Below, in pieces: positions 58,214 to 59,685 of a stretch of DNA of 64,000 nt. Source of the DNA: Verrucomicrobium spinosum DSM 4136 = JCM 18804 (lineage in GTDB: Bacteria > Verrucomicrobiota > Verrucomicrobiia > Verrucomicrobiales > Verrucomicrobiaceae); contig NZ_ABIZ01000001.1 of assembly GCF_000172155.1 (NCBI RefSeq), forward strand, positions 8,093,105-8,157,104. The letters run 5' to 3'. A program made the position numbers and the translations under genes. The notes under the pieces are model-generated. The model did not search any database. It was not told the origin of the DNA and saw only the letters and a list, made by a program, of their open reading frames with translations. Position 1 is the stretch's first letter, and each line of letters begins with the position of its first letter.

Positions 58214-58558
58214 TTATTTCTTATCGTCAACCAGCGTGGCTTCTTCGGCCTTGGCTTTCTTGTGGGCAATGGCGGTGCGGTCGAATTCGACCTTCCCTTC
58301 GGCGAACTTCACCACCACAGTTTTCTCTTTGACGGTGGCGACCACACCATGAGCCCCGCCGATGGTGACCACTTCATCTCCGGCAGACAGGGCCTTCTGA
58401 AGGGTTTCCTGCTCCTTCTGCTTTTTGCGCTGGGGGCGGATGAGGATGAAGTACATCATCACCATCATGAGCACCATCATGATGATCGTGCTGGAACCTC
58501 CACCTGGCTGACCTGCGGGAGCTGCTTGGGCGATGACGATGATGCTGGAAAAACTCAT
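58214..58558 (-). CDS. yajC: YajC, accessory subunit of the Sec translocon
   Basis: The 114-residue protein has one helix ([20 protein letters not shown]) followed by the family motif [20 protein letters not shown], then [17 protein letters not shown]. The start overlaps the tgt stop codon (ATGA), and an AAGGA run lies upstream. The order tgt-yajC-secDF is conserved in many bacteria. Confidence 0.95.
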
Positions 58559-59685
58559 GATTCCTTGTGGGGTTGGTATTTGGCGGTAAACTCAGTTCGA
58601 AACTCGTTGAAGTAGCCTTCCTCGATGGCGGTTCGGGCACGCGACATGAGGGACAGGTAGAAATGCAGATTGTGGAGGGAAATCAACCGCAATCCCAGGA
58701 TTTCCCCGGCCTTGATCAGGTGACGAATGTAAGCACGGGTAAATCCGCGGCAAAGGGGGTGGGTATCCTCGCTGATGGGACGGAAATCCCGGGCAAACGT
58801 GTTGTTTTTGAGATTGAGCGTTCCTTCGTCCGTGAAAGCCGTGCTGTGGCGGGCGAGCCGCGTGGGCAGCACGCAGTCGAACATGTCGATCCCGCGGGCG
58901 ACCATCTCAATCATCTGGGGCGGGGTGCCCAGGCCCATGGCGTAGCGGGGCTTGTCCATGGGCAGGTGGGGGATGCTGTGCTCCACGGCAGCCATCATCT
59001 CCGGCTCCGGTTCGCCCACACTGACGCCGCCAACGGCGTAGCCGTCGAAGCCGATCCCGACGAGTTCCCGGGCAGACTTGGCACGCAATTCGGGATAGCT
59101 GGAGCCTTGCACAATGCCGAAGTGCATCTGGGGTTTCCCGTTGGTCATGGGCTGGTTCTTGTCCACCCATTCGCGGCACCGTTTGGCCCAGCGCAGGGTG
59201 AGGTCCAGGCTCTTGGCCGCATACGCCGCATCACAGGGGTGGGGCGGACATTCGTCGAAGAGCATGGCAATGTCTGAGCCGAGGATGGACTGAATTTCCA
59301 TCGCGCTCTCTGGACCCAGCATCATGGGTGAACCATCCACATGGTTCTGAAAGTGAACGCCTTCTTCCTTGATCTTGCGGAGCTTCCCCAGGGAGAAGAC
59401 CTGGAAGCCGCCGGAGTCTGTGAGGATGGGCTTGTTCCAGTTGGCAAAGGCATGCAGGCCTCCCGCCTCACGCATGACTTCCATGCCCGGCCGGACGGCG
59501 AGATGGTAGGTATTGCCTAAAATGATCTGGGCTCCGATAGCCTCCAGCTCCACCGGATGGACCGTCTTGACCGAACCCTGGGTGCCCACGGGCATGAAGA
59601 TGGGCGTTTCGATCACCCCATGGGGAGTGACCAGCCGCCCGCGTCGGGCGAGGCTGTGGGGATCAGTACCAAGGAGGGTGAACAT
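58555..59685 (-). CDS. tgt: Queuine tRNA-ribosyltransferase (tRNA-guanine transglycosylase)
   Basis: Tgt replaces guanine 34 by preQ1 in tRNAs with GUN anticodons. The 376-residue protein has the general acid/base Asp90 ([11 protein letters not shown]) and the nucleophile Asp270 ([12 protein letters not shown]). The usual zinc site is CxCxxC-x25-H; here the three cysteines read Asp307-x-His309-x2-Cys312, with His338 conserved at the right distance. So two zinc ligands differ from the standard form. The frame extends 47 codons upstream, but ATG 59685 gives the standard N-terminus ([18 protein letters not shown]). It starts the tgt-yajC-secDF operon. Confidence 0.95.

Follow-up and report, generated by a model that had tools for sequence, protein, structure and literature searches.

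The window, i.e., the whole 64,000-nucleotide stretch of the genome of Verrucomicrobium spinosum DSM 4136 that was analysed, encodes a tRNA-guanine(34) transglycosylase (Tgt) in which the Cys3His zinc site of bacterial Tgt is broken. As judged from aligned sequences, the loss of this site is real, class-wide and recurrent in a conserved tRNA-modifying enzyme. We infer that the metal is absent, that activity is retained and that packing serves as the replacement; it is quite probable that the window protein is a working Tgt which has lost its structural zinc and relies on ordinary packing instead. Zinc appears to be dispensable in Tgt, since the site is broken in most sampled members of the class and in many unrelated bacteria while the enzyme otherwise looks intact. 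With nearly as much confidence, we consider that zinc is no intrinsic need of Tgt and that functional zinc-free forms arose many times and are the rule both in most Bacteroidota and in the window's class.

The initial annotation placed a Tgt at this locus (Table 1), and the gene is indeed real: its minus-strand frame is intact from the ATG at 59685 to the stop at 58557-58555, and the translation gives full-length matches to TIGR00430 (495.4 bits, curated cut-off 306.75) and to the Pfam TGT family PF01702 (518.6 bits, cut-off 26.3). A second canonical Tgt in the same genome, which the annotation had named as a result that would overturn its reading, was looked for and rejected: the genome-wide search of the 8.22 Mb single-contig genome yielded one Tgt and no second member of PF01702. 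The gene order tgt-yajC-sec matches tgt-yajC-secD-secF of Escherichia coli K-12, a neighbourhood that is thus shared with the E. coli enzyme. Divergent from tgt lies a sulfatase gene (59775-61358, plus strand; PF00884, 213 bits). On the minus strand a DUF1016 gene (53634-54272) was found with its N-terminal domain alone, and an open frame at approximately 53000-53640, which looks to us like an IS4-type transposase, follows it directly on the same strand, as if an insertion had cut DUF1016.

Table 1. Positions in the window of tgt, its neighbours and the residues discussed in the text.
Feature	Position	Strand	Basis or remark
tgt, tRNA-guanine(34) transglycosylase, 376 aa	58555..59685	-	TIGR00430, PF01702, translation
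yajC	58214..58558	-	start codon overlaps tgt stop (ATGA), 4-base overlap
secDF, SecD and SecF fused, one 781-aa frame	55775..58120	-	third gene, conserved neighbourhood
Former zinc loop D307-T-H309-P-L-C312 (canonical C-x-C-x2-C)	58750..58767	-	translation, alignments
Asp307 codon	58767-58765	-	
His309 codon	58761-58759	-	
Cys312 codon	58752-58750	-	
His338 codon, fourth canonical zinc ligand (E. coli H333), kept	58672..58674	-	alignment
Catalytic Asp90 codon (E. coli D89)	59416..59418	-	alignment
Catalytic-pocket Asp144 codon (E. coli D143)	59254..59256	-	alignment
Asp270 codon, nucleophile by homology (E. coli D264)	58876..58878	-	alignment
His322 codon (E. coli H317)	58720..58722	-	alignment

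In E. coli Tgt the zinc site consists of C302-x-C304-x2-C307 and H333. The window protein has D-T-H-P-L-C with H338 in place of C-x-C-x2-C with His, and we file it, by its sequence, as a bacterial Tgt outside the Cys3His zinc type. Asp307, His309, Cys312 and His338 are located as the initial annotation had them and the codon coordinates agree; its claim that Asp307 and His309 stand opposite the first two zinc cysteines holds in part. Compared with E. coli, the loop lacks one residue and the position of the gap shifts between alignments, so that gap placement determines which residues face the first two cysteines. If no gap is introduced from Cys312 onwards, Asp307 lies opposite the first cysteine and His309 opposite the second; in two MAFFT alignments it is Thr308 that faces the first and His309 the second, and in a third alignment Thr308 and Pro310 face the two. 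Because the loop is shorter, Asp307 is only a loose stand-in for the first cysteine. The placement of Cys312 and His338, by contrast, is firm in all three alignments, and their retention can be maintained as claimed. Cysteines elsewhere in the loop, the other result named as contradicting the annotation, were sought in the translation and the alignment and none was found, so displaced loop cysteines are rejected. A sequencing error or a pseudogene was rejected as well: the D-T-H-P-L-C motif recurs in all three further genomes of the genus, which argues against an error, the frame is intact and dN/dS is below 0.1.

The structure prediction that the annotation had proposed gave a normal Tgt fold. 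AlphaFold modelled the window protein with a mean pLDDT of 93.3 and with 95-97 in the blocks that span residues 301-340; the model has this fold over the whole chain and superimposes on Thermotoga maritima Tgt (2ash) with a Z of 52.8 and an rmsd of 1.2 over 359 residues (model residues 1-371). L161, a protein from the Akkermansiaceae, has a loop devoid of Cys in which the His-Pro pair and the His are kept; its model has a mean pLDDT of 90.9, with 93-97 over the same blocks, and a TM of 0.94 to Zymomonas mobilis Tgt. Metals are not placed by AlphaFold, which would probably predict a normal fold with or without one, so these models speak to the fold and not to metal binding.

Apart from the zinc site the enzyme seems complete. 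The initial annotation considered the catalytic aspartates intact, and D90, D144 and D270 do align with E. coli D89, D143 and D264; these three aspartates and H317 are kept in all 130 broken-site Tgts. The window protein also carries the preQ1 pocket, for which we take E. coli C145, Q187, G213, G214 and V217 to be the list from Tgt structures; all 134 rows, made up of the 130 Tgts and four duplicates, have C145, Q187, G213 and G214, and position 215 is Val in the window protein as in 54 zinc-intact rows. For the dimer interface we assume a 16-residue offset, by which Z. mobilis Trp326, Tyr330 and His333 equal E. coli positions 310, 314 and 317. According to PMC5395182 these three residues and Phe92 form the hot spot of the Z. 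mobilis interface. Among the 134 broken-site rows, Phe or Tyr occurs at 310 in 128, Tyr at 314 in 128 and His at 317 in all. Five Akkermansia-like broken-site Tgts (L012, L076, L078, L081 and L084) have none of the four ligands as Cys or His, and at E. coli position 314 they carry Ala instead of the interface Tyr, which may point to an altered dimer. The gene is under purifying selection: by NG86 the window sequence differs from L026, L030 and L025 by a dN of 0.076-0.106 and a dS of 1.17-1.30, and over seven relatives dN is 0.003-0.135, with a dN/dS below 0.1 in the six that are unsaturated (dS 0.31-1.89).

The genome likewise contains QueA, QueC, QueG and QueF, all above their cut-offs and away from tgt, with QueC adjoining QueF; these four include steps upstream as well as downstream of Tgt. 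Akkermansiaceae and some Bacteroides are described, on the basis of gene content, as typically able to synthesize queuosine (Q) (PMC11130926), a statement that fits a working Tgt in these groups.

The initial annotation had suggested that Tgts of Verrucomicrobiota be aligned to see whether the change is clade-wide; it is, and its extent goes far beyond what was expected there. A site was called intact if the loop contains C-x-C-x2-C and a His occupies E. coli position 333, and broken otherwise. The Tgts sampled came from relatives, from the phylum and from named genomes across the bacteria, and two further draws covered the phylum to which a Pedobacter genome belongs and the class that includes a genome of the Pelagibacteraceae. 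Of the 76 genomes examined in the window's class, 68 have a broken-site Tgt (76 of the 77 genomes with a Tgt match are covered, G064 being left out); for 54 it is the only Tgt found and 14 have a second, intact one, while the remainder comprises seven genomes with one intact Tgt and one with two. This count includes L114, the only Tgt of the class genome G164, as broken, although it belongs to a different Tgt lineage. The other classes of the phylum had an intact site in all 60 genomes examined (91 have a match). Among 80 named loci, 16 were broken, i.e., 8 from Verrucomicrobiota, 7 from Bacteroidota and 1 from the Pelagibacteraceae. The two remaining draws were centred on genomes chosen for their broken Tgt (L228 and L208), from which the group names are inferred: 38 of the 50 Tgts in the Bacteroidota draw (one Tgt per genome, centre genome included) and 10 of the 41 aligned sequences in the Alphaproteobacteria draw (including the centre genome and one divergent paralogue) are broken. 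Five further loci of the latter draw were unaligned, of which two look broken and another two look intact. Whole-genome searches of ten genomes with a broken-site Tgt, among them seven Bacteroidota, found a single Tgt in every case. In the 130 broken-site Tgts that remain after removal of duplicate loci, the number of canonical ligands kept in the alignment columns is zero in 24, one in 56 and two in 50.

The number of losses was estimated from trees. A FastTree tree of 320 Tgts was built with the zinc columns removed; ten short or split ORF pieces were left out, which affects L156 and L157 (intact), L323 and L328 (which look intact), L331 and L336 (which look broken) and also L329. On the best tree the state of the zinc site changes at least 14 times, a best-tree count because the deep branches of the FastTree tree are weak. 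There are 8 independent pairs if only starred branches are used, the stars of this quick tree deserving lesser trust, and 14 if all branches are used. Among the independent pairs listed, no clear compensating residues outside the loop were found, most pairs being uninformative. In a more careful tree of 55 Tgts, seven intact Tgts (including L002 and those of Chthoniobacterales type) and L033 join the window's group (98/97) and the Opitutales-like group stands apart from it (100/100); the group labelled as intact of the class consists of 12 intact rows and the broken L033. This topology suggests two losses within the class. In an AU test with the sampled broken-site Tgts of both class groups constrained to one clade, p-AU was 0.141 and a single origin was not rejected.

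The way in which the loop decays among relatives bears on what, if anything, replaced the zinc. The initial annotation held that zinc could still bind through Asp/His/Cys/His or that another metal could be used. Asp, His and Cys are chemically able to act as metal ligands, and a swap of ligands instead of a loss, with zinc, Fe or Mn held by Asp307, His309, Cys312 and His338, would fit the finding that these four are kept together in 20 of the 25 genomes of the window's family (D-T-H-P-x-C). Asp307, His309 and His338 are kept in all 25, so that a weak site of this kind may exist in the window species. However, the other five family genomes (genera g3 and g10) read D-T-H-P-L-V, with Cys312 replaced by Val. 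Outside this family, some genomes of the order have Asn, Ser, Ala, Glu or Lys in place of Asp307, and this residue is out of register in the MAFFT alignments. In the Akkermansia-like family f2, which groups with the Akkermansia muciniphila locus in the tree, the loop reads E/K-G/S-H-P-H/F-V, so that Cys312 has become Val, and His338 has become Gln, in 14 of 14 genomes. Cys312, Asp307 and His338 therefore all vary among relatives and the substitute site is unsupported; since Asp307 and Cys312 vary even among close relatives, it is less likely than loss of the zinc, and we consider it rather improbable. His309-Pro310 is kept in all these variants, even where the other ligands are gone, as in f2. 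Because Asp307 and Cys312 drift while this pair stays, the simplest reading, judged from conservation, is that His-Pro serves the structure of the turn and that the site binds no metal. The relative L033, whose broken loop is C-I-H-P-L-T, may be an intermediate stage in which the first Cys is retained. In L006 (G029), where HP occurs twice, the loop reads D-T-H-P-T-V. Within the class, the Opitutales-like part shows a different decay, mostly x-x-N-Y-x-C/T/S, and several other forms occur in Bacteroidota, e.g., F-x-N-x2-C with Gln.

That the protein would no longer be a Tgt at all, i.e., a decaying or repurposed paralogue, could be argued from its broken hallmark site and from the second canonical Tgt of some relatives. 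Yet no other Tgt was found in its genome, all four Q-pathway genes sought accompany it, the catalytic residues and the tgt-yajC-sec order are conserved and dN/dS stays below 0.1, which makes this very unlikely. Equally remote is a variant of our preferred explanation with another cause, in which zinc was shed through a general trend of zinc sparing and not through neutral structural replacement; the occurrence of broken sites in the Pelagibacteraceae genome (L208) as well as in many Bacteroidota speaks for it only weakly. On the preferred reading, loss of the structural zinc from a working enzyme, the Cys3His site would have decayed in an ancestor within the window's order, with the loop losing one residue, the first Cys disappearing and the second region becoming His-Pro, and the third Cys and the His would have drifted in some lines. 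Ordinary packing would now keep in place the loop and the helix once pinned by zinc, and the new lock would likely be the THP turn. The window Tgt would then act without structural zinc in an ordinary queuosine pathway, swapping G34 for preQ1 in GUN tRNAs. Other groups have apparently dropped the zinc too: the Opitutales-like members of the class, most of the Bacteroidota sampled and several Alphaproteobacteria.

PMC6165067 names two hallmarks of TGTs, of which the zinc domain is one, and PMC9508795 counts TGT among the zinc-requiring Q enzymes, citing Chong et al. (1995). The window protein shares the predicted fold, the aspartates, the preQ1 pocket and the interface His with bacterial Tgt (TIGR00430; 1PUD of Z. 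mobilis, 2ASH of T. maritima, and the E. coli enzyme), whereas its Cys3His site is broken to D-x-H-x2-C in a loop one residue shorter. A comparable situation is described for GluRS in PMC4381286, where many bacteria are stated to be without the zinc motif and the zinc-free pZBD to be functional. Like Tgt, GluRS is a tRNA enzyme with a zinc domain that is zinc-bound in some bacteria and, for Tgt presumably, zinc-free in others; unlike Tgt, to which it is unrelated, its zinc-free state was tested by experiment. The eukaryotic QTRT1/QTRT2, homologous to bacterial Tgt, present the reverse case: the zinc ligands, three Cys and one His, are reported to be present in both subunits and the catalytic residues in only one (PMC3660597), whereas the window Tgt keeps the catalytic residues and loses the zinc ligands. 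Among the matches listed in the open-licence PMC literature, judged by title and start of abstract, we found no report of zinc-site loss in Tgt, which does not prove that none exists. If our reading is true, the statement that TGT requires zinc needs revision, as whole groups, including Akkermansia-like bacteria and Bacteroidota, would be zinc-free; the zinc dependence of the E. coli type would not be transferable to these bacteria, and Q synthesis in the window's class and most Bacteroidota would be independent of zinc at the Tgt step. These proteins would also be natural variants for probing the role of zinc in the fold, the dimer or tRNA binding.

The second Tgts (L037-L044, L092, L098, L102, L104, L108, L112, L117 and L130) have an intact Cys3His site and a C-terminal extension; the fragments comprise 464-536 aa and the frames are open over 575-810 aa. 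They occur in 14 of the 68 class genomes with a broken-site Tgt, one of which belongs to the window's genus, and in G158 and G131. Since these 14 genomes, to which that of the window does not belong, have a second canonical Tgt, the broken Tgt there need not be the active enzyme. In the 4 of the 16 that were tested, as fragments short of the frame end, no Pfam domains beyond TGT were found. The 16 proteins make up a single clade, whose sister group is mostly alphaproteobacterial. In this sister group fall L333 and L114, two divergent Tgts whose zinc sites are broken and whose base pocket is altered (AIGG-SLG); they possibly have another base specificity.
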